From the NCBI RefSeq assembly GCF_022347685.1, contig NZ_JAKRGF010000001.1, positions 496,001-560,000 of the forward strand: a DNA stretch of 64,000 nucleotides, given 5' to 3'. This stretch comes from Thalassobius sp. Cn5-15. Lineage in GTDB: Bacteria; Pseudomonadota; Alphaproteobacteria; Rhodobacterales; Rhodobacteraceae. Under the pieces are notes generated by a model that worked only from the letters and a program-made list of their open reading frames with translations, was not told the origin of the DNA and ran no database searches. Shown one piece after another: positions 24,000 to 63,967 of the stretch. Each line of letters opens with the position of its first letter. Position 1 is the stretch's first letter. The translations under genes and the position numbers were made by a program.

Positions 24000-24089
24000 G
24001 GAGAGGTGCCGGAGTGGTCGAACGGGGCGGTCTCGAAAACCGTTGTGGGTGCAAGCCCACCCAGGGTTCGAATCCCTGTCTCTCCGCCA
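24000..24089 (+). tRNA. tRNA-Ser (anticodon CGA)
   Basis: The 90-base sequence folds as a class II tRNA: acceptor GGAGAGG paired with TCTCTCC, D arm, anticodon stem GCGGT/ACCGT with loop CTCGAAA (anticodon CGA), a long variable arm, TTCGAAT T-loop, discriminator G and encoded CCA. It reads UCG codons. The integrase gene 125 bases downstream makes its 3' end the probable phage attachment site. Confidence 0.96.
24059..24089 (+). other. Probable attL core in the tRNA-Ser 3' end
   Basis: Phage integrases next to a tRNA usually recombine in the T-arm and acceptor end. The tRNA stays intact here, so the prophage carries the replacement 3' end or the crossover lies inside it. The matching attR should be beyond base 64,000 and is not visible, so the boundaries are inferred. 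Confidence 0.45.
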
Positions 24090-24198: not shown

Positions 24199-24214
24199 AA
24201 AGGACGGATTGGGT

Positions 24215-25468
24215 ATGTCAAATAGTCTGCAATTACGCGGCAAAACTTGGTGGATTAGGTGGCATGTTCCGAAGCGGTTCAAGTCGGTCGAAACACGCAA
24301 AGAAATATTTTTCAGCCTCAAGACCGGCGACGAGGAAGTCGCCCAGTTGCGCGCGGCCACTGCCAAAAAGCGAACCGTCGCAATGTGGGAGGCTCGCCTT
24401 TCCGGCGAAAACCCCGACTTTGAGGCCGTCGTAAAATACTGCCAAACACTCGGCTTCACATACCGCCCTGTTGCAGAGGTGTCAGACGAGGAGTTCATTG
24501 CGCGCTTCAAAGCGATCGAGGACGTGAAAGACGCGGCAACAGCTGATGCGGTCCTTGGCACGGTCAAGCCCCCTCAGATGAAGGTATCCGGCCTTGCCGA
24601 CTGGTACGATGAACACACCGCATACAAGCGCAAGAAAAAGAACAAAGAGCAAAACCGGATCTGGAAGTCACCCTTTAACCTCTGCATCAAACGCTTTCAG
24701 GAAGCGTGTGGCGACATGGAAGTCCTGACCATCGACCGGAAGGATGCCGTAAAATTTCGCGACAACCTGAAAGAAATGGTGGCCGCTGGGTCCATTCAGG
24801 CCGACACGGCCAATAAGTCGCTCGGTTCAATTAAAACCATGATGAAATACTACCTGCTGGATCTGGCACCAAATACAGCGAACCCGTTTGACGGTCTGGC
24901 CCTATCCGCCGGTAAGAAGCAGCAAAAAACGCGGCCGCCGATCCCAAGTGCAAGCATTCAGCAATGGCTGCGGTCTGGTGTTCTGGATGGGCTAAACGAT
25001 CAAGCGCGCGACATCCTGCATGTGGTGGTCAACACCGGCTGCCGGCCTTCTGAAATTTGCGGCCTCCTGCCCCACCACATCCATCTCAATGCAAACGTGC
25101 CCCATTTCGATCTGGTCGAGGAAGGGCGCGAATTGAAAACCGCGGCGTCGATCCGAAAAGTCGTGGTGGTCGGTGTGGCCCTAGAGGCTATGCGGCGCAA
25201 CCCCGAAGGCTTCCCGCGCTATCGCGGCAAACACGGGACGTATTCAACGGCCGTGAACAAGTATCTGCGGGAAAACAAACTGACAGGCGATAACGGGTTG
25301 AGTTTCTACGGCCTGCGTCACGCCTTCAAGGACCGCCTGCGCGCTGCCAACATGTCTGATAGCCTGATGGATCAGCTGATGGGGCACACAGAGAAGGGTG
25401 AGAAGTATGGCGAGGGCTACGATCTGCACCGAATGCAGGAAGCCCTCACCGAGGTCAGTTTTTACTGA
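24215..25468 (+). CDS. Tyrosine-type phage integrase (DUF6538 N-terminus)
   Basis: The protein has 417 residues from the ATG at 24215 (AGGA upstream). The N-terminus (LQLRGKTWWIRWHVPKRFK) is the DUF6538 arm-binding type, followed by a SAM-like core-binding domain and the catalytic domain: the first Arg in NTGCRPSEICGL, LKTAASIRKV with the Lys, SFYGLRHAF, GH at MGHTEKG, and the nucleophile Tyr in the YGEGYDLHRM region. The box usually written HxxR reads YxxR, as in many relatives of this subgroup. It integrates and excises the prophage at tRNA-Ser. Confidence 0.93.
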   Translation: MSNSLQLRGKTWWIRWHVPKRFKSVETRKEIFFSLKTGDEEVAQLRAATAKKRTVAMWEARLSGENPDFEAVVKYCQTLGFTYRPVAEVSDEEFIARFKAIEDVKDAATADAVLGTVKPPQMKVSGLADWYDEHTAYKRKKKNKEQNRIWKSPFNLCIKRFQEACGDMEVLTIDRKDAVKFRDNLKEMVAAGSIQADTANKSLGSIKTMMKYYLLDLAPNTANPFDGLALSAGKKQQKTRPPIPSASIQQWLRSGVLDGLNDQARDILHVVVNTGCRPSEICGLLPHHIHLNANVPHFDLVEEGRELKTAASIRKVVVVGVALEAMRRNPEGFPRYRGKHGTYSTAVNKYLRENKLTGDNGLSFYGLRHAFKDRLRAANMSDSLMDQLMGHTEKGEKYGEGYDLHRMQEALTEVSFY

Positions 25469-25965
25469 TACCAGTAAGCGTCTGCGGTGTAGTCACGGAA
25501 ACTCGCTGCGCCGTCAGCGTCGATCTTCATCAGCTGAACGCGCCCATAGGCGCCGTATTCGCTGCCCCCGCCGGTTGCGCTGGCAAAGAACACGGCCGAA
25601 CCGTCGTCATACTCGGAAATCAGGCCGCTGCGCTCGTCCACCGGAACGTGCTTGCGCCAGTCTTTTTCCTGCATACCATCGACCAGCTGCCAGTCTTCGG
25701 CCAGCATATCGCTTTGAGATGCCAGCCATCCATGCAAGATCGCACCTTGCGCGGTGATCATCGCAACACAGGGCAAGCGGGTGCTGGTGTCGTGATCACC
25801 CAATTCAAACAGCTTTTTGTCGATGCCTGCGCGCTCCGCATCACAAGCACCCTCAGGCGCAAAGCTACCGTTGACGATGTAGACGCACATTCCCTTGCCG
25901 TTCCAGCCTTCACGGGCGACCCGCGCGCCGTGCTTCATCGCATCAATTGCTTGACCAAAGTTCAT
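25462..25965 (-). CDS. Tad2-like protein (DUF2829), predicted Thoeris/CBASS signal sponge
   Basis: The protein has 167 residues. Residues 1-98 match the Tad2/DUF2829 fold: MNFGQAIDAMKHGARVAREG then WNGKGMCVYIV, and LPCVAMITAQGAILHGWLAS followed by QSDMLAEDWQLV. Tad2 proteins of phages bind and sequester the cyclic ADP-ribose-type signal of Thoeris, and some also CBASS nucleotides. About 70 extra C-terminal residues (from MQEKDWRKHVP) are not part of the family core; I do not recognise them. The start overlaps the upstream Acb2/Tad1-like gene (ATGA). The 3' end overlaps the convergent integrase by seven bases. Confidence 0.8.
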   Translation of the reverse strand: MNFGQAIDAMKHGARVAREGWNGKGMCVYIVNGSFAPEGACDAERAGIDKKLFELGDHDTSTRLPCVAMITAQGAILHGWLASQSDMLAEDWQLVDGMQEKDWRKHVPVDERSGLISEYDDGSAVFFASATGGGSEYGAYGRVQLMKIDADGAASFRDYTADAYWYQ

Positions 25966-26474
25966 TCGTCACCTTCCAATTCATCAAGATCTTCCTCTAC
26001 CTCCTCCGGCACTTCCTCTTGTGATGGCGGCTCAATCGGCATGATGTCCTGCATCGGGCGCTTGGTGGCCGCCTTGACCGCGTTCATCGCGCCGTCCTCA
26101 AACTTGCTGGCTGCCATTGCCGCTTGACGCCCACCTTCGGGAACGCCCTCTGCGCCGGAAGCCAATGTCATGTCGATCAGGTCGGCCGCTGCCGCCTTGA
26201 GGATCGAAACCGAGCCAGAAGCTGACGGGTTGAATTCGGTGCCGACGCGATAGCTTCCCATCGTTTCGTTACGCTCGACGCCCAGCCCCTGCACGGCCAG
26301 AGAAATCGCCTGCAGCGCCAGGTCATGTTCGGGCTGCGCGATACGCATACCCGCGCCTCTGAGAAGGAAATAGCGGACCAGCCGGTCCATTTCCTGCGGG
26401 ATCTCAGCGCCAATGGCTTTGAGGGTGGTTTCCGCAGCAACGCTAATGTCGTTCAGTGTTTGATTAGAAATCAT
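25962..26474 (-). CDS. Acb2/Tad1-like hairpin-domain protein, predicted anti-CBASS/anti-Thoeris
   Basis: The protein has 170 residues. Residues about 74-140 resemble the Acb2/Tad1 hairpin domain: RVGTEFNPSASGSVSILKAA, AADLIDMTLA, a short variable loop, then AASKFEDGAMNAVKAATKRP. Acb2/Tad1 proteins bind cyclic oligonucleotides and cyclic ADP-ribose isomers and so block CBASS and Thoeris. The N-terminal 70 residues are helical and unassigned, and the C-terminus is a very acidic Glu/Asp/Pro tail. The Tad2-like gene follows with a four-base overlap, which supports the call. Similarity is by eye and needs a profile search. Confidence 0.6.
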   Translation of the reverse strand: MISNQTLNDISVAAETTLKAIGAEIPQEMDRLVRYFLLRGAGMRIAQPEHDLALQAISLAVQGLGVERNETMGSYRVGTEFNPSASGSVSILKAAAADLIDMTLASGAEGVPEGGRQAAMAASKFEDGAMNAVKAATKRPMQDIMPIEPPSQEEVPEEVEEDLDELEGDE

Positions 26475-27110: not shown

Positions 27111-27272
27111 TTATTTCATGCGGGCAATACGGGCGGCGATGAACACAAGGACGACAACCATTGCATCCAGCACCCAGTCGATCACCGGCGGCATTACGGC
27201 CTGCAACGCGGTGAGGGTGGCGGCTGCTGTGACGGACCACAGCAGCACCTTTTCTTTGAGCCAATCAAGCAT
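27111..27272 (-). CDS. Small two-helix membrane protein, 53 residues
   Basis: The frame MLDWLKEKVLLWSVTAAATL is followed by a second hydrophobic stretch (VIDWVLDAMVVVLVFIAARI) and a basic end, a holin-like size and topology. The start overlaps the stop of the TerB-like gene by eight bases. The lysis genes proper are at 53-54 kb, so a holin role is only one possibility. Confidence 0.55.
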   Translation of the reverse strand: MLDWLKEKVLLWSVTAAATLTALQAVMPPVIDWVLDAMVVVLVFIAARIARMK

Positions 27273-27696
27273 CGTAGTCAGACAGTTTCAGGCTCAGCTT
27301 GTCGGCCAGCTTTTCCAGAACCTTGATTTCAGCCGGATCGACTTCACCGTCCGCATCTGCAATATCCATCGCGGTCAGCAGAACGATTTCGCTGTCTTCG
27401 TGATTGCCGGCCACATCCTCGATCTCTTTCCAGAGGCCAATCTTGCCGACACGGCGGCCTTGAGCGCGCGCCAGCATGCTATCAATACAAGCTTCGATTT
27501 CACGGGTCGAAAACGAGTCTTTCAGCACCTTGTTTGCGGTGACGGCATTGGCCGTTGCTTCGATTTCGATGTCGTCAATGTCCCCGTCAGCGGCCGCAAC
27601 CAGCGCGGCAGAGGCGCAGACAGCCTCCAACAGATCGGTGCGGCCCGACATGCGTTTTGCGCCACCAGACAGTTTTTCTTTCAGTTTACCAAACAT
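27265..27696 (-). CDS. TerB-like (tellurite resistance fold) phage protein
   Basis: The protein has 143 residues from the ATG at 27696 (GGAGAGAG upstream). It has the all-helical TerB pattern with two similar acidic helical repeats: LVAAADGDIDDIEIEATANA and AMDIADADGEVDPAEIKVLE, whose Asp/Glu clusters can hold metal. TerB-domain proteins are linked to membrane-associated stress and phage defence. Its role in a prophage accessory block is unknown. Confidence 0.8.
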   Translation of the reverse strand: MFGKLKEKLSGGAKRMSGRTDLLEAVCASAALVAAADGDIDDIEIEATANAVTANKVLKDSFSTREIEACIDSMLARAQGRRVGKIGLWKEIEDVAGNHEDSEIVLLTAMDIADADGEVDPAEIKVLEKLADKLSLKLSDYDA

Positions 27697-27772
27697 TCTC
27701 TCTCTCCAAGTTTTGGTTAAATCGGCTCTGTCGTCCGCCGCTGCCCCCGACGCGCAGGGGCAGAAAAGGGCG

Positions 27773-28117
27773 TCAGGATTTTTTGGAGGCCGTGAACATG
27801 TGGACCTCACTCATCAGGAGTTCCTCGCCGTCTTGCTCAAGGCTGCTTTCGTGAAAAATCTGCGGGTTATCCTGTGCCGCCATCATCATTTCGCGACGCA
27901 TGTTTTTCACTTGCATGTCGCGCAGCTTCGGCTGATCCATTTGACGGATTAGATCAAACCTACTGAACGCACGTCGGCCTTGGATTGTCGCAATTCTATT
28001 GCGATCAACGCACACCATGCCGTGCAGTTCAGCCTCATGGATAAGCTCTTGGCGGGAAAGCCGCGTCAGGCCGGAGGGGGCTTGATTGCGCACAGACTTG
28101 AAGGTCGGTTCCGTCAT
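27773..28117 (-). CDS. Phage protein of unknown function, 114 residues
   Basis: The start ATG at 28117 overlaps the upstream stop (ATGA). The protein is basic in its middle (SRQELIHEAELHGMVCVDRN) with a methionine-rich MKNMRREMMMAAQ-type helix near the C-terminus. A repeated-helix, possibly nucleic-acid-binding character is possible; no family is recognised. Confidence 0.55.
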   Translation of the reverse strand: MTEPTFKSVRNQAPSGLTRLSRQELIHEAELHGMVCVDRNRIATIQGRRAFSRFDLIRQMDQPKLRDMQVKNMRREMMMAAQDNPQIFHESSLEQDGEELLMSEVHMFTASKKS

Positions 28118-33030: not shown

Positions 33031-33468
33031 ATGACAACTTGGATTACCGACGAGAATGGAAACCGCGCAAGCGTTGAGCATTTCGGCAGTGAAGAGGCAG
33101 CACGCAACGCCCTCGCAACCCTTATTAACTGCACGAACTGCAAGAACTGCACGTACTGCACGTACTGCACGTACTGCACGCGCTGCACGGACTGCATGCA
33201 CTGCACGAACTGCACGAACTGCACGAACTGCACGAACTGTCACCGCATCAAGTACGCAACCAGCCCTATTGTAGTCGGCCCTTTCCGGTCTGACGGCTGG
33301 CAATTCGTTATGAATAACGACGGCGGCATCCGTGCGGGCTGTCGGTGCTTTGGCAACATTGAGCAGGCGTACGAACACTGGAACGAGACGCGCGGCGGAA
33401 CGCCGCTGGGCGACGAAACCACGGTTATTTTGGACGCGCTGGAAGCCTTGGCGAAGGTGAAGAGATGA
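33031..33468 (+). CDS. Phage protein with cysteine at every third residue (13-fold Cys-x-x repeat)
   Basis: The protein has 145 residues. Residues 33-70 are an uninterrupted run of (N/Y/R/D/H)-C-(T/K/M) triplets with 13 cysteines at exact 3-residue spacing. It is flanked by an N-terminal ITDENGNRASVEHFGS part and a C-terminal domain (FRSDGWQFVMNNDGGIRAGC, then an EQAYEHWNETRGG segment). The repeated C-x2-C spacing could hold several zinc ions or Fe-S clusters, or pack as a narrow helical solenoid. I know no named function. The next gene overlaps by four bases. Confidence 0.7.
   Translation: MTTWITDENGNRASVEHFGSEEAARNALATLINCTNCKNCTYCTYCTYCTRCTDCMHCTNCTNCTNCTNCHRIKYATSPIVVGPFRSDGWQFVMNNDGGIRAGCRCFGNIEQAYEHWNETRGGTPLGDETTVILDALEALAKVKR
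33127..33240 (+). repeat. 9-bp tandem repeat encoding the Cys triplets
   Basis: About 12.7 copies of a 9-base unit close to AACTGCACG run in frame with the gene. Every cysteine codon but the last is TGC, and variation is concentrated in the first codon of each unit. Length change by slippage would add or remove three residues without a frameshift. Confidence 0.9.
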
Positions 33469-57166: not shown

Positions 57167-60100
57167 TCAAGGTTTCCGCTTCAATGAGCGCTCTTTTGCG
57201 GCCTTGGCCTTCTCCGCTGTTTCAAGGAACTGCTCGGCCGTTGTCATGCGTTCAGCTTGAATTGCATCATGCTCCTGCCAATAGGCTGCAAATGCACTTG
57301 GGTCTTCTATTAGGCCATTGTACTGATCCAAGAATTTCTTGCGCTCCTGCTGCACGCGACGGTTCAGCTTGGTGTTTGCCGATATAAATTGCCGCACCGG
57401 GCTATCCAGCTTAGCGGTGAAGATGTTGAATTTGACGGACTTCTCACCTGGCACAACGGCTTGTTTTGCGCCTGAAAGCAGCGCGCTTTTAATCAGCTTT
57501 CGGTTCAGCTGACCGCGTTCATCAATGGCCCCGCCAAGATAGGCAAGATCGCGATTTTCGCGCAGGTATGTTTGAAGATCAGGCGGGATACCCTTTTTCA
57601 AAATTGCTTTCGCAAGAGCCTTTGGGTCTGTGCCGACTTTGTACCCCTGCCCGCTTTTCTCTGCATGCTTTGCCAAACTGCGGTAATAAAAATCCATCAC
57701 ACCTTCGACCTCATCAATGGTGTCATATGCGGCGCCAGTGATCGCGCTGACTTTTCGGTCAGCGGTATACGCATCAAGGATCGGAATATCAGAGGTTTTG
57801 ATGGATTGACCCCCATAAAGGCGCGATGCCACCACGCCTGATTTTTCAAGCAAGGTGTAATAGCCGCCCAAATAGCCCCGTAGAACATGGTCCACCTGCT
57901 TGGGGTGCATATCCAGCTTGCCCTTCTCAATGTCTGAGCCGCCGGTCACAAGGTTTGCCTTTTGCGCGATAGGTCCAGCCACCCATGATTGCGATGGCTG
58001 GGACTGGTGGGACATGGGGCCGCGATCCTCATCACCGAAGTGGATCTTTCCACCGAAAAAAGCGTTCTGGTTGAAGTAGGCTTGCGCGACCGGATCAGCA
58101 GCATCAGGCACAGCGGCAGACCAATGGAGCATGTTGCCCATAGGGGACCACGACGAACCCATTTCGCTGACCATGCTGCCGAACATGTCGGCGCCACTCA
58201 TCTTACCGCGGATCAGCCCCGCCGACATGACGCGGCCGAAGTTGATGAACGTCGAGAAGCCATAGGGCAGCGACACCTTATTGAACCCCTCGCCAGTGAA
58301 CGAAGGAAGGATCAGGTTGCGCTGTTTTTCGTATTCCGGCAGGCTGTCATATTCCTCGTCGTCCTGCAGGCCGGCCCCCATAAGATCAGACAGCATGCCA
58401 GTCGCGACAAGAGCCATGAGGTATCCGGCAGTGCGCTTTGTTCCCAATCTCTTCGGGAGTGTCAGGATAGCGTGTGCGCCTTGGATCGCCGCATTCACGA
58501 ACATGAAGTAACTGGACAATTCCGAGGTCATTTCGCCGCGCCGGTTAAAGTTGACCGTCAGGTTTTTGGCCTCATTGGCCGCCGCCTCTTTGCTGTAGGT
58601 GGGGCGCCCTTTGTCGTCGGTAATTTCTCGCAGGCCACGATACAGCGCAAGGCGAGTTGCATTTTCAATAGCGCCCCCGAAATGCTCCATCATTTCCGGC
58701 ATGAACATGAAGAAGTCTCGGCCACGGTTCATTACGACGTGATCGCTGGCATGACGACGCGCCATCTTTTCAATCTGCTTGCCTGTGCGGGTCAAGTCAT
58801 TGAATTGCGCAAAGGCAGTTGGCCCACCCACCGCACGAAACTCCTGCGCCCATCGCGCCCATTCGCTGTTAGCATCCAGTACCTTGTTGCCATTCGCATC
58901 CTTGCGATAGATCGGCTTCTGGTAGGTCTTGAACATGGCCCGTGCCGCCGGCAGCGCGTTCTTTGCCACCTTCATGGTCAGCCCCTTGTGGCCAGGCATG
59001 CTGGCGTATTGGCGGGACATGATGAGCGCGGTCGCGATGTCGCGTGGAAGGTTTTTGCCGAATACAAAGATCGGGTTCCAGCGCGTCAGCACGCCAGACA
59101 TCGCAGAGGTAATCGGTCGAAAGATCCGCGCCAGCAGCGTTAGTCGGGCAAAGTCCAGCTTGCCATAGGCCCGCGCCAGAGCTGGATCTTTCATCTTGAT
59201 CAGCACCTCTTTGCCGCCGACCTTGATGAATACGTTGCTGGGGTTATTGCGATCAGACTGGCTATAGGTAGAGATCCAATCCACCGTGCCGGTATCGGGG
59301 TTGAAGGCCAGCTGAGGCTTTTTCTTCACCAGTGCCCAGTGATCAGACGGGTTGTTTTCAACCACATCCAACATCACCTGTCCGACTTCGTTTTTGTGGG
59401 CGCGGATAATCGCCTCATCCACCTGCGTCATGACGTTTGCAAGGATAGTATCCATGTCCGCAAGGTTTTTACGACCGCGCGCCTTGAGGGCCTCGGGGCC
59501 ACGCACATTGAAGCCTTTGCCAGTGCTGTTTCCGCCGCCCATTTCCTCCAGATCATGACCGCCGGCCATTTCATCGAAACCTTTGAGCGGAACATAGTGC
59601 TTATAGGCCGACCAGCTGGCCGCATGTTCTTTGGAGATAAGGCCAGACGCCACACGCAGATCACGCATCTCCTTGTGCATTTCATCGACTAGCTGGCCGA
59701 TTTCCTGCAGGGCTTTCATCTGGTCGGGGGTGTTTTGCTGCATTTCCGCGTCGATTTCAGCAATCATTTCGGCCGACAGACCAGATCCGTTTTCATGCCC
59801 GAACCGTTTTTTGATTTCACGGTCCCGTTCGTCTGCATGTCGGCGCATAAGGAACGCACCAACTGCGCGTTGAGACAATTTGTTTTTGCCTATCAGTGCA
59901 GCAATCGGCTCCTTGAACCGAACCTCAATGTCCTCCATTGCGGCGCCCGCCTTGCTGTCAAACAACCCCATGTTTTGATAGACACGGTTGTCACCGACAC
60001 CCTCCCCGATATCCTTCCAGCGCAAGAAGGCATCCTGAAAGAAACGGCGCAAATTGAACACCCAGCCGTGACGCATGCCGGTATCCATCGCGCCACGATA

Positions 60101-63100
60101 GAAGCGGTTCAGTGCGCCCGCGATGGCGTGATCATACCCGCCATATGCGCCGGTTGTCCGACGCGCCTTGTCAACGGCCACTTGGTAATCGCTACGTTGT
60201 CGCTGCCCGATGTGCCCGCTATCCACCCCATCAAATACGCTTTCTGCGCGGGACATATTACTATCAAGTAAAGCATGAGCAATGCCGTGGAAGAATTTGT
60301 AAATCTTCTTAAAAACACCCTCATTTGGGTGGCGGCGCTTGGCTGCCGCCCATTCCGCAAAGGCTTCGGCAATAGCCTCCTCGTTCCGCGCGTCTTCGCT
60401 CAGATCGGGATAGCGTTCATCAATGCTGTAGCGGTCGCGCCATTTGGGGGCCACCTTCTCCAGCGCCTTCCATTCGGCGTCAGTGAATAGGCCAAGGTTG
60501 CGCAGCGCGTGGATCGCCTCGTGGTTAAGCGTATCCATGCCACCATAGGCCGCGTTCAGTAGGATGCGGCGCGTGTCCCCAAAGGACTGGAAGCGGCCCA
60601 GATCATCACGATCCACCCCTTCCAGCCAATCCAGCTTCACGTCTTTCAGGCCCAGATCATCAAGCCGCTGGCGGGCGGCGCCATGCAAGATCGGTACGTC
60701 ATACCGGAAGTCAGCGCGCACATCACCGGATCGACGGAATTTCTCCGTGATCACATCCTTCATTTGACTGGCAGCGTCTTTGTCGTCAAACAGCCAGCCA
60801 CGGCTTGCCTTGCTGTATTTGCCGCCCAGATCCTTTGCGTGATCATTCATCGCTTTCCAGATCGGACGCGGCGTGTAAGTCGTCAGCTTAACCGCGGTCT
60901 GGCTGCCGACCTCCTCCAGCTCAACCTTGGATTTCTTCACCTCGGCGGCCGCAGCTGGAGTCACGTCGTTGTCAGGTTCAGGCTCCTTGGGGATCAGGCG
61001 CGACGGGATCTTGTGATGTTTGATTTCATCAAAGAAGTCCTTGATGTCCTTGACCTCCTTGAACCGATGTGCCGGCTTCGACATGCTCGACATGGCCGCG
61101 ATGTTGTCGGCGTCTGTCTGCTTCTCCAGAACCAGAATGCGAGTTTTGACACTGGTGCCTGCGCGCTTGAACGTGATCGCGGGCAAATCAAGGGAGGCAA
61201 TAACCCCGATATTCTTGAACTGATCGCTGTCGATCATGGCCGCCATGCGCTTATCAGCTGCCGGACCAGCTGGAACCAGCGCTACAACACGTCCGCCATT
61301 GCGCAGGTGCCCCAGTGCCTTCTCTACATGCTCATAGGCCAGCTTCCCGCCGCTACCAAAGGGCGGGTTCATGACAATGGCGTCATACTTCACCCCGATG
61401 TGCAGATCCTCAAAGGTATGTTCGCGGTGACGCGCCCCTGGCGTATACATCATGGCCTTGGTCATGAGTGACTGGGACGGCTCAATGATAGTCCTGTCTG
61501 TATTCTCCGGCATCCAGCGGGCAATGGCGCCATGCCCTGCGCTTGGCTCCAGAACGCGCTCTGCGCCCTTGATGTCGGCCCACTCCACCATCTTGAGGCC
61601 CAGAGGCTCCGGCGTGGCAAAGTAGTCCTTACCGGCCCGCTGGTCGCGCTTGCCGCTTTCTTTCTGGTTGCTGAAATAGAAGCTGGTGGCGCGGTCCCAC
61701 GGCGTCAATTCCGCCGCGCGGTCCTTCTGCTTGCCGCCCTTGCCTTCGCCCTGCCGTGGATCACGCGCAGAGGTGGACACAAAGCTGTCGATGATGCTTT
61801 CTCGCAGCCCGCGCGCCTTGTTGCCCATCGCCAGCGCCTCTGCAATATCGGCGCGCTCCGCCATGCGCTGCGCAAACATGCGCTCCTCAAACAGCGTCTG
61901 AGTGTTGTAGTAGCGGAAGATCGCGTCAGATGCCTGACCTACACGGAACGCGCGCCCTTCCTGTTGAACAGCCTGTGTTGGTCGCACGGGTAGGCCAAGG
62001 TTATGGATCGCACGCTGGTGTACCCCAGTCGTGTCATGACCGGACCAACCGTCCTTGCCGCTCTCTGCCTGCGTGACAACCACGTCAACGCCTGAGTTGT
62101 CCATCTGGAACAGGTTATGCGCTTCAAGGCTGGCCTTTTTGCTGACCGTCTTTCCTTGGCGGTTGATGCCGGAACCAATCGGCATAGCCTTGGGAAATGC
62201 CTCAAAGATCTGCTCACGCGCAGGTCGCAGCCCAGAGAAATCCAGCTGTCCAACCCAAGGGTGTTCCGTCAGAAAGTCGCCCCAAAGCGATCGCAGTGCG
62301 TCAGGATCTCCGTCCCATTGCTGAATGGCCTCGTTAATATCAAACGGGTTCAGACCGCCGCCCACCTGCCGATCATGGAAAAAGATAACTTTGCGCCCCA
62401 ACGCAATGTCTTTCTTAGCTTTTTCGATAGCCTGAGGTGCCTTGATTGCTTCCAGAAGCTGCACCTGCTTGTGGTACGTGAACACCTTTTTGAAAGCGTC
62501 GTTGAGCGGGCGATAATCCTTATTGTCCCACATCAACTGAAAGCCCTCGTCAATCTTGTTGCCGATGCCTCCATCCACAGCAATGAACATGCGCTCATAG
62601 TCGTGATCCACATCAAGCACATTGCCATCAACGGAACCTTGATCGCGCAGCCACTCGTGGAAGGTTCGGGCCATAAGGTTCTGGTCTACATCAGCTTCTG
62701 GCGCCGTCAGCTTGTTGTACCGCATGCGGTATCCAAAGTGCTGGATCATGAAGGCGTCCCGACCGTCAGGCGCGTTGTAACCGCTGCTGTCCTCAATGGT
62801 CGGATAGTCGAACAGGAACCCCTCAGCGAAATCCACCGTCTTAACCGTGGCGAAGGGCGTGGCCGATGCCATGAATACCTTGGGGCGCTCCATCTTGGTG
62901 TAGCGCGCCAACAGGGCTTCACGCTGCTTCCTGATCCGGTCATTCAGTAGATCAGACTCTTTCTCCAGTCGTTCAGCCGCAGCGTAATCGTCGGCTGCAT
63001 TCGCCTTGGCGATCTGCTTTTTAAGCTCGGTCGCCTTTTTAATCTGCTCATGCAATTCCATATCTGCGCGGCGGTTAAGGTGGCGCGGATGTAGAGCTAT

Positions 63101-63967
63101 ACCGCGGAAATCGTGGGTCCGCGTGGAGGGCTTGCCGTCCATGCTTTCCATGACGTGATTGATCTCATCCCCAACGATCAGATCCCACTCAACCTTACCC
63201 AGCTCCTTGTTCAGCCCCAGCTGTCCATTGATGGTCGTGATCACCACACCATCGCCCGCGTCCTTGCCGTCCTTCAATACGCTGTGCGGCACATCCAAAA
63301 CATCAAGTGCCTCGCTTACAGTCTTGATCGGATTGGTTTTTGTGAGGATCAGAATGCGCCCCTTGCCAGCGGCATGGAAGCGTTTCACCACACCGCCCAG
63401 AATGAAGGATTTACCCGTGCCAGTGCCGGAAGTCGTCAGATAGCCTTCGCCCTGCGGCTTACCTTCGTCGGGATTGAAATACCGCTTTTCTGCCTGCAGA
63501 ACCTCCTTACGCTGCGACGGGAACAGCGCTGGCAGCATCGCATCAATGCTGTCAGCGTCACCCCATTTGGGCGTCAGCTTGGCCTCATTTGCAGCTTTCT
63601 GCTTCTGGGAGGGGCTTAGGTCAGGCTTTCGCGGAGAGGCTTGTTCAGCAGCGTCAGCAACGCCTTCATCCGGTCGTGGCCCAAACGATATTCCGCCTCG
63701 GCCAGCTTCCCCGCTTCCGTCAGCGTCAGGATTTCGGGAAACACCGCCGCCGGTATCATCCCCGCGCTGACCGCCTTCTGAATTGCGATCCGCTCGTGCA
63801 GAAGGGGCGCCGTTGTTAGAAACGCGCGGGCCACTATCGGCTCCACCCCGTTCTGCTCCAGCTGATCCGTCAGTTGATCCACCTTCTCGTCCAGCGCCGT
63901 CGCGTCCAGCGGGAAGATCTCCTTGCCCCACGCTGTTTCCGGCCCCTGCTGGGCCACCGCGTTCCAC
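57167..63967 (-). CDS. Giant polyvalent phage protein (helicase, methyltransferase, metallopeptidase, LPD38-like); 5' end uncertain
   Basis: The open frame gives up to 2266 residues. From about residue 117 on it is clearly protein-like: SF2 helicase with GTGTGKS (181-187), GDEIN (267-270), ASATPF (near 367) and QQEGRAFRVGQ (668-678); SAM-dependent methyltransferase with LEPSAGHG (806-813) and NPPFG (867-871); HEAIH zinc metallopeptidase (1149-1153) with a later Glu; long helical LPD-type regions and an LPD38-like membrane-associated part near residues 1780-1960. Such proteins are packaged and injected to counter host defence. The first 115 residues are Gly/Arg-rich, without a start in a coding-like context, and overlap another gene in a different frame, so the true start is not settled. 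Confidence 0.8.
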   Translation of the reverse strand: MERGGPAGAGNSVGQGDLPAGRDGAGREGGSTDGSAGAERGGADSGPRVSNNGAPSARADRNSEGGQRGDDTGGGVSRNPDADGSGEAGRGGISFGPRPDEGVADAAEQASPRKPDLSPSQKQKAANEAKLTPKWGDADSIDAMLPALFPSQRKEVLQAEKRYFNPDEGKPQGEGYLTTSGTGTGKSFILGGVVKRFHAAGKGRILILTKTNPIKTVSEALDVLDVPHSVLKDGKDAGDGVVITTINGQLGLNKELGKVEWDLIVGDEINHVMESMDGKPSTRTHDFRGIALHPRHLNRRADMELHEQIKKATELKKQIAKANAADDYAAAERLEKESDLLNDRIRKQREALLARYTKMERPKVFMASATPFATVKTVDFAEGFLFDYPTIEDSSGYNAPDGRDAFMIQHFGYRMRYNKLTAPEADVDQNLMARTFHEWLRDQGSVDGNVLDVDHDYERMFIAVDGGIGNKIDEGFQLMWDNKDYRPLNDAFKKVFTYHKQVQLLEAIKAPQAIEKAKKDIALGRKVIFFHDRQVGGGLNPFDINEAIQQWDGDPDALRSLWGDFLTEHPWVGQLDFSGLRPAREQIFEAFPKAMPIGSGINRQGKTVSKKASLEAHNLFQMDNSGVDVVVTQAESGKDGWSGHDTTGVHQRAIHNLGLPVRPTQAVQQEGRAFRVGQASDAIFRYYNTQTLFEERMFAQRMAERADIAEALAMGNKARGLRESIIDSFVSTSARDPRQGEGKGGKQKDRAAELTPWDRATSFYFSNQKESGKRDQRAGKDYFATPEPLGLKMVEWADIKGAERVLEPSAGHGAIARWMPENTDRTIIEPSQSLMTKAMMYTPGARHREHTFEDLHIGVKYDAIVMNPPFGSGGKLAYEHVEKALGHLRNGGRVVALVPAGPAADKRMAAMIDSDQFKNIGVIASLDLPAITFKRAGTSVKTRILVLEKQTDADNIAAMSSMSKPAHRFKEVKDIKDFFDEIKHHKIPSRLIPKEPEPDNDVTPAAAAEVKKSKVELEEVGSQTAVKLTTYTPRPIWKAMNDHAKDLGGKYSKASRGWLFDDKDAASQMKDVITEKFRRSGDVRADFRYDVPILHGAARQRLDDLGLKDVKLDWLEGVDRDDLGRFQSFGDTRRILLNAAYGGMDTLNHEAIHALRNLGLFTDAEWKALEKVAPKWRDRYSIDERYPDLSEDARNEEAIAEAFAEWAAAKRRHPNEGVFKKIYKFFHGIAHALLDSNMSRAESVFDGVDSGHIGQRQRSDYQVAVDKARRTTGAYGGYDHAIAGALNRFYRGAMDTGMRHGWVFNLRRFFQDAFLRWKDIGEGVGDNRVYQNMGLFDSKAGAAMEDIEVRFKEPIAALIGKNKLSQRAVGAFLMRRHADERDREIKKRFGHENGSGLSAEMIAEIDAEMQQNTPDQMKALQEIGQLVDEMHKEMRDLRVASGLISKEHAASWSAYKHYVPLKGFDEMAGGHDLEEMGGGNSTGKGFNVRGPEALKARGRKNLADMDTILANVMTQVDEAIIRAHKNEVGQVMLDVVENNPSDHWALVKKKPQLAFNPDTGTVDWISTYSQSDRNNPSNVFIKVGGKEVLIKMKDPALARAYGKLDFARLTLLARIFRPITSAMSGVLTRWNPIFVFGKNLPRDIATALIMSRQYASMPGHKGLTMKVAKNALPAARAMFKTYQKPIYRKDANGNKVLDANSEWARWAQEFRAVGGPTAFAQFNDLTRTGKQIEKMARRHASDHVVMNRGRDFFMFMPEMMEHFGGAIENATRLALYRGLREITDDKGRPTYSKEAAANEAKNLTVNFNRRGEMTSELSSYFMFVNAAIQGAHAILTLPKRLGTKRTAGYLMALVATGMLSDLMGAGLQDDEEYDSLPEYEKQRNLILPSFTGEGFNKVSLPYGFSTFINFGRVMSAGLIRGKMSGADMFGSMVSEMGSSWSPMGNMLHWSAAVPDAADPVAQAYFNQNAFFGGKIHFGDEDRGPMSHQSQPSQSWVAGPIAQKANLVTGGSDIEKGKLDMHPKQVDHVLRGYLGGYYTLLEKSGVVASRLYGGQSIKTSDIPILDAYTADRKVSAITGAAYDTIDEVEGVMDFYYRSLAKHAEKSGQGYKVGTDPKALAKAILKKGIPPDLQTYLRENRDLAYLGGAIDERGQLNRKLIKSALLSGAKQAVVPGEKSVKFNIFTAKLDSPVRQFISANTKLNRRVQQERKKFLDQYNGLIEDPSAFAAYWQEHDAIQAERMTTAEQFLETAEKAKAAKERSLKRKP

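Follow-up and report, generated by a model that had tools for sequence, protein, structure and literature searches.

A hairpin-family gene overlaps a Tad2-like gene at the integrase end of a Thalassobius prophage: a putative two-sponge counter-defence pair

Two overlapping genes face the integrase of a temperate phage

The window, by which we mean the whole 64,000-nucleotide stretch of DNA that was analysed, carries a tRNA-Ser gene (24000–24089) beside an integrase gene. A second copy of the 18-base repeat formed by the 3' end of this tRNA lies 63.97 kb further along the contig, beyond the window, and replication, anti-repressor, portal, terminase, tail and amidase genes are found between the two copies. 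The element, framed by the repeats and carrying portal, terminase and tail genes, is a temperate phage of ~64 kb in tRNA-Ser. Its integrase end has the following features:

24072–24089 (+), left attachment repeat, 18 bases, identical to the 3' end of tRNA-Ser (sequence repeat)
24209–25468 (+), prophage integrase (phrog_1, E 1.1e-30)
25462–25965 (−), Tad2-like gene, 167 aa (PF11195 and PDB sequence matches)
25962–25965 (−), ATGA stop/start overlap of the hairpin and Tad2-like genes (sequence)
25962–26474 (−), Acb2/Tad1-hairpin protein gene, 170 aa (PF24729, relatives and AlphaFold model)

Both minus-strand genes begin with ATG; the first runs from 26474 to 25962 and encodes the 170-aa hairpin product, and the second runs from 25965 to 25462 and encodes the 167-aa Tad2-like product. 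A preliminary description of this DNA had given the two genes these positions, coupled them through a shared ATGA, placed them at the end of the accessory block, and pointed to the motifs WNGKGMCVYIV and WLASQSDMLAEDW in the Tad2-like product. All of this was borne out: the stop of the 170-aa gene and the start of the 167-aa gene share the ATGA at 25965–25962, the pair forms the final two genes of a minus-strand run of small genes and faces the integrase at 24209–25468 (+), and both motifs are present in the 167-aa product. PADLOC found nothing in 10 genes of the accessory block, and megablast of the prophage DNA from 24.2 to 49 kb against the phage collection gave no match.

Other genes of the element were noted in passing. 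The same minus-strand run includes a TerB-family gene (27265–27810, −; PF05099, E 2.2e-10). A gene at 33031–33468 contains a nine-base repeat in 13 registered copies that encodes a Cys-rich run of NCT-type triplets. Positions 57167–63967 (−) are part of a 3474-aa open frame that runs past the window end and matches families of long phage proteins in which methylase- and helicase-like parts occur; this frame had no match at E ≤ 1e-50 in 8 other genomes of the genus that were searched.

The 167-aa product carries a complete Tad2 domain

The Tad2-like protein divides into a domain, an insertion within it and an extension:

25681–25965 (−), Tad2 domain PF11195, residues 1–95 (E 3.3e-23; 8wjd, E 2.8e-18; 8kbi, E 1.6e-15)
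25801–25869 (−), insertion in the Tad2 domain, residues 33–55 (alignment with the short Tad2 of viral locus L009)
25465–25677 (−), orphan C-terminal extension, residues 97–167 (relatives not found)

The preliminary description had called this gene a strong Tad2 candidate, and the call stands, with residues 1–95 matching PF11195 at 82.4 bits (cut-off 25; E 3.3e-23) and SptTad2 (8wjd) as the best solved match at 69.5 bits (E 2.8e-18). Seven of the nine PDB sequences listed for the protein are Tad2, AcrIIA7 or members of the same family under another name. The core GWNGK together with W80, S83, D86, D91 and W92 is invariant in six aligned Tad2 domains, that of the window included. Residues 1–95 share the whole domain with known Tad2 proteins (8wjd, 8kbi and Gp34.65, 8sme), and the domain is similar in length to those of SptTad2 and 8kbi. 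As judged from these sequence comparisons, the Tad2 identity of the product is secure. Compared to known Tad2 proteins, it has 71 additional C-terminal residues for which relatives were not found, and its gene overlaps the hairpin gene ahead of it.

The window domain has a 23-residue insertion (residues 33–55) where the short Tad2 of L009 has a gap. The available text of a review (PMC12043709) describes cyclic dinucleotide binding through an insertion of Tad2, along with the ligands of Acb2, Tad1 and Tad2, and residues 33–55 may correspond to that insertion. A Tad2 relative, MoTad2, is said in the accessible part of PMC13299392 to bind His-ADPR. The protein could instead act mainly as an anti-CRISPR of the AcrIIA7 kind, since among its close solved relatives one was deposited as a type II CRISPR-Cas inhibitor and another as AcrIIA7. 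We regard this as very improbable: the best solved match is SptTad2, three more bear the deposited names Tad2 or Gp34.65 (the SPO1 protein), and relatives of the hairpin sponge adjoin Tad2 in several lineages (see below).

The 170-aa product is assigned to the Acb2/Tad1 hairpin family

In the protein encoded ahead of the Tad2-like gene, a central domain is flanked by two extensions:

26262–26474 (−), orphan N-terminal extension, residues 1–71 (three predicted helices, pLDDT ~71–80)
26061–26261 (−), Acb2/Tad1 hairpin domain, residues 72–138 (83-sequence alignment; model helices)
25965–26060 (−), acidic C-terminal tail, residues 139–170 (sequence)

Residues 92–137 match PF24729 at 26.8 bits (cut-off 27; E 5.9e-6). 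In a six-frame search of the genome the same hairpin scored 27.2 bits, above the cut-off, and the next two matches scored 15.2 and 12.7 bits. Six relatives from IMG/VR share 44–57% identity with the protein over the matched part; they are 74–83 aa long and consist of the hairpin domain alone. PF24729 matched all seven aligned sequences (the window protein and these six), with a best E of 7.3e-15. With the window protein as query, tblastn gave nothing at E ≤ 0.01 in 50,697 phage records and a search of bacterial genome contigs gave no relative. The L009 hairpin relative, used as the tblastn query, found 153 phage records.

A wider alignment was made from the window protein and the 82 rows that were left of 117 after near-identical ones had been dropped; seven of its 83 rows were given other ends. 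K93, R116, M130, A132, V133 and T137 are invariant in it, and all six are kept in the window protein, as is the aligned Y75. At position 131 the window has N, and 74 of the 83 sequences have W. Residues Y11 and K26 of p26 are, we presume, ligand contacts; the literature search found no support for that role.

A first AlphaFold run on 7 sequences gave a model of low quality (pLDDT 45.9), which was set aside. With the 83 sequences the mean pLDDT was 82.9 and the pTM 0.54, and the hairpin region reached pLDDT 88–98. In this single-chain model the hairpin domain consists of a short helix (72–77) and two long helices (87–106 and 112–137), the short-plus-two-long arrangement that the Tad1 hairpin shares with Acb2 (p26, 8h2j/8ixz; Vs.4, 7uq2; homolog 43, 9ptq). 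Compared with the viral models of BFVD, it has as its first- and second-ranked fold matches proteins that both bear the name Acb2/Tad1 hairpin (probability 1.00; E 2.6e-4 and 0.018), and from these matches we infer an antiparallel course of the two long helices. Among the 49 matches listed by Foldseek against the PDB there was no sponge and none was significant. In the full Tad1 family an N-terminal antiparallel beta-sheet precedes the helices, according to the available text of PMC12043709. The model has helices and no strand ahead of the hairpin, which points to an Acb2-type protein rather than Tad1.

In a profile comparison with solved chains, nine of the 14 PDB sequences listed are Tad1, Acb2 (p26), Vs.4 (which we take to be the Acb2 of T4) or an Acb2 homolog; none was significant, the Tad1 chains coming at E 0.028–0.034, Vs.4 at 0.23, Acb2 homolog 43 at 0.42 and p26 at 0.77–0.78. 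One Tad1 row of this list carries another deposited name; the accessible text of PMC11722364 refers to this entry, 8smd, as Tad1. The solved Acb2 and Tad1 chains thus match the window sequence only at E 0.028 or weaker, even with a profile. L197, a relative of another subfamily, reached Acb2 homolog 43 at E 1.8e-4. The window protein keeps K93 and R116 of the family. It differs from Acb2 in its length (170 aa vs 76–93 aa in the solved chains listed), in an added N-terminal helical extension and acidic tail, and in having N131 for W.

The preliminary description had likened this protein to Acb2/Tad1 by eye. Neither an absent profile match nor a model without the hairpin was found: the PF24729 match is significant (E 5.9e-6, and 27.2 bits in six frames), relatives match down to 7.3e-15, and the model contains a helical hairpin. 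The assignment is therefore well supported, and the protein is a predicted sponge that would bind cyclic nucleotides. It might alternatively be a degenerate or repurposed Acb2 relative, with N131, a short loop and an extra N-terminal domain, that has lost nucleotide binding and leaves Tad2 as the only active partner. Its borderline PF24729 score (the weakest in a survey of the order, at 27.2 bits vs 33.5–67.1 for the others), N131 and the orphan extensions are what such a protein might show. We nevertheless consider this unlikely, as the six invariant residues and Y75 are kept, L014, an otherwise typical hairpin sequence, also has N at the position of N131, six sequences have R there, and the gene is an open frame whose codon-position GC appears coding.

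Both proteins have extensions without collected relatives

Neither extension of the hairpin protein was recovered elsewhere. Residues 1–71 had no tblastn match (E ≤ 0.5) in 451 other loci and one weak match in 50,697 phage records (Citrobacter phage Tr1, E 0.04), which was taken as chance because the Tr1 protein matches a neck/tail-completion family; the acidic tail had no relative in the loci collected. Residues 97–167 of the Tad2-like protein had no match in the collected loci or phage records. Codon-position GC in the parts encoding residues 1–71 of the hairpin protein and residues 97–167 of the Tad2-like protein resembles that of the domains and the integrase, and these extensions therefore look coding. 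Both genes add to families already known, and both are unusual in their extensions.

Hairpin and Tad2 genes are paired repeatedly in viral contigs

We scanned IMG/VR viral contigs for relatives of the hairpin protein (6 of 6 loci, and the best 80 of 227, 80 of 379 and 80 of 511) and of the Tad2-like protein (the best 80 of 579 and 80 of 588). Because the best 80 were kept per scan, the counts describe those sets and not all viruses. Of the 246 hairpin loci, 14 had a Tad2 gene within the flank that was fetched (1/6, 7/80, 4/80 and 2/80 in the four scans; L058 in these counts and L009 are one contig). Among the 160 Tad2 loci, 8 had a hairpin gene in their flank (5/80 and 3/80). The partner was not found in the fetched flanks of 232 hairpin and 152 Tad2 loci, some of those flanks being shortened by contig ends. 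When hairpin loci sharing DNA were joined, 9 of 176 clusters contained a pair, a cluster being counted if any member was paired. The largest paired cluster (L300, L335) has Tad2 in only those two of its seven loci. L433 and L436 were counted apart despite ~80% identical DNA, and L039 and the Tad2-side locus L221 share 71–73% identical DNA.

Both genes are on one strand in every pair, both gene orders occur, and several hairpin types take part. The ends overlap or lie ≤2 bases apart (starts chosen by hand) in L009, L039/L041, L055, L069, L117, L221, L283, L300/L335 and L321/L322; as in the window, the two families adjoin on one strand in L009, L055, L069, L117, L221, L283, L321, L335 and others. 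There is an intervening gene or a longer gap in L061, L115, L126, L133, L144, L281, L433 and L436. Among the viral contigs listed, L115 has the Tad2 gene that matches that of the window best (54%, E 7e-31), and it too has a hairpin gene nearby. In the Pfam scan, which took in 16 pair members, the hairpin was confirmed in each at 38.2–88.8 bits (L009, L039, L055, L061, L069, L115, L117, L126, L133, L144, L221, L281, L283, L300, L321 and L433), and Tad2 was confirmed in L009, L069, L117 and L433; in L436 the best PF11195 match of the Tad2 gene covers only the first 23 residues. The paired Tad2 genes are of 73–85 aa in L009, L039, L055, L061, L221, L281, L283 and L321, and longer, mostly through extra N-terminal residues, in L069, L117, L126, L133, L144, L433 and L436. 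Compared to these pairs, the window proteins stand apart by their two extensions, which were found in no collected locus.

Pairs were absent from the other bacterial loci, both in a profile scan (0/20, with a single assembly supplying 7) and in the order survey (0/12; early hairpin profiles recovered 9 and 10 of these 12 loci and widened profiles all 12). Nor did any of 13 stretches selected from named phage records contain both genes (9 had Tad2, 4 a hairpin); these are a small part of such records, as two of the source searches listed 262 and 153. Pairing is thus a minority state, at ~5% of the loci kept, yet it is local and repeated, and it looks like a recurrent arrangement.

These counts bear on a reading in which the window holds two independent sponges in a compact accessory operon, their overlap being ordinary packing and their joint function none. 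It disputes joint action only and so overlaps with the explanation that we prefer (below), and we give it somewhat less than an even chance. In keeping with it, overlapping genes also adjoin Tad2 where there is no hairpin partner, in SpaA1 (P60/P61) and RHEph10 (gp164/gp165), the great majority of hairpin loci lack Tad2 in their fetched flanks, both gene orders occur, and in the L300/L335 cluster only two of seven loci are paired. Against it, several hairpin types are involved, and in the hairpin-side pairs Tad2 lies ≤600 bases from the hairpin gene in 9 of 9 clusters, although that distance makes up only 21% of the flank searched there. The chance estimate for such closeness is 0.213^9, or ~9e-7, with the 600-base limit set post hoc and L433 and L436 counted apart.

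Target domains and relatives of both proteins occur in the order

Domain searches covered 244 genomes of the order: SMODS, the CBASS cyclase domain, was found in 24 of them and ThsB_TIR in 20, figures that stand for domains and not whole systems. The host genome (3.5 Mb) had no SMODS or ThsB_TIR match at E ≤ 1e-5. PF24729 was matched in 12 of 390 genomes of the order survey; within the family, relatives of the hairpin protein occur in 2 of 248 genomes and relatives of the Tad2-like protein in 3 of 248, the host being included in all three counts. The hairpin sequence of the same-family genome G010 is the same as that of a Defluviimonas denitrificans locus (L095), which by itself would make the host a probable member of the Rhodobacteraceae. 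Two genomes, G023 and G363, each have both a SMODS domain and an Acb2/Tad1 hairpin match.

Proposed function of the pair

We propose, with a probability of roughly 0.7, that the two predicted sponges form a unit with which the phage counters signals of the CBASS and Thoeris types. The proposal builds on the family membership of both proteins, the hairpin fold of the model, the gene overlap and the recurrence of the pair. The unit would act from the integrase end of the temperate phage. Given the ATGA overlap and gene order, both genes would lie on one transcript and the second would be translated by coupling. The hairpin product would form an Acb2-type helical hairpin, oligomerise and trap CBASS cyclic di- and trinucleotides. 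The Tad2-like product, as a long-insertion type, would trap Thoeris signals of the gcADPR type, and its insertion would perhaps let it take up cyclic dinucleotides as well. With a wider range than either protein, the pair would stop abortive infection set off by more than one signal class.

A broader idea, which we put forward tentatively and think has the odds against it, is that phages have assembled hairpin and Tad2 genes many times, in both orders and with several hairpin types, as a unit under selection, coupled translation keeping the sponges in proportion so that cyclic-nucleotide and ADP-ribose alarms are disarmed at once. The orphan extensions of the window proteins could dock both predicted sponges into one mixed assembly.

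Two signal-evasion proteins per phage are on record for SPO1 (Tad2 and Acb4) and T4 (Acb1 and Acb2) in the available text of PMC11722364. As in the window, one phage would there have two ways to remove immune signals; the families are partly different, and that text does not state whether the genes are neighbours or coupled. Single sponges are described in the accessible parts of PMC12043709 and PMC11722364. The literature searched, which covers few subscription papers, makes no mention of a coupled hairpin–Tad2 pair, and we claim no priority. The Panoptes system of the host is triggered by Acb2, by 2 of 4 Tad1 alleles and slightly by 1 of 4 Tad2 proteins (PMC12657218, available text).

If the pair works as proposed, phages would meet layered nucleotide-signal immunity with matched sponge sets and not with single proteins, and natural pairs would allow the division of labour between sponges to be measured directly. 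Searching beside Tad2 or hairpin genes would then be a simple rule for finding further counter-defence genes.

Further observations at Tad2 loci

A GTKxVxAxPM...YNxxRGW-like stretch that carries no name lies ahead of Tad2 in several phages. The stretch or its start occurs at:

L069, 3273–3722
L117, 2764–3300
L144, 2776–3285
L114
L433, 2420–2650

In L433 a start of this kind forms a gene of its own, placed between Tad2 and the hairpin gene. Three of the stretches were scanned and had no Pfam match, and the stretch is a possible third partner. For some Tad2 genes (L069, L117) a resemblance of the N-terminal domain to the N4 gp49/Sf6 gp66 family was considered, and the Pfam scan did not support it. 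In Staphylococcus phage SpaA1 (L459, 1259–1764), two Tad2-like genes lie in tandem with a one-base overlap.
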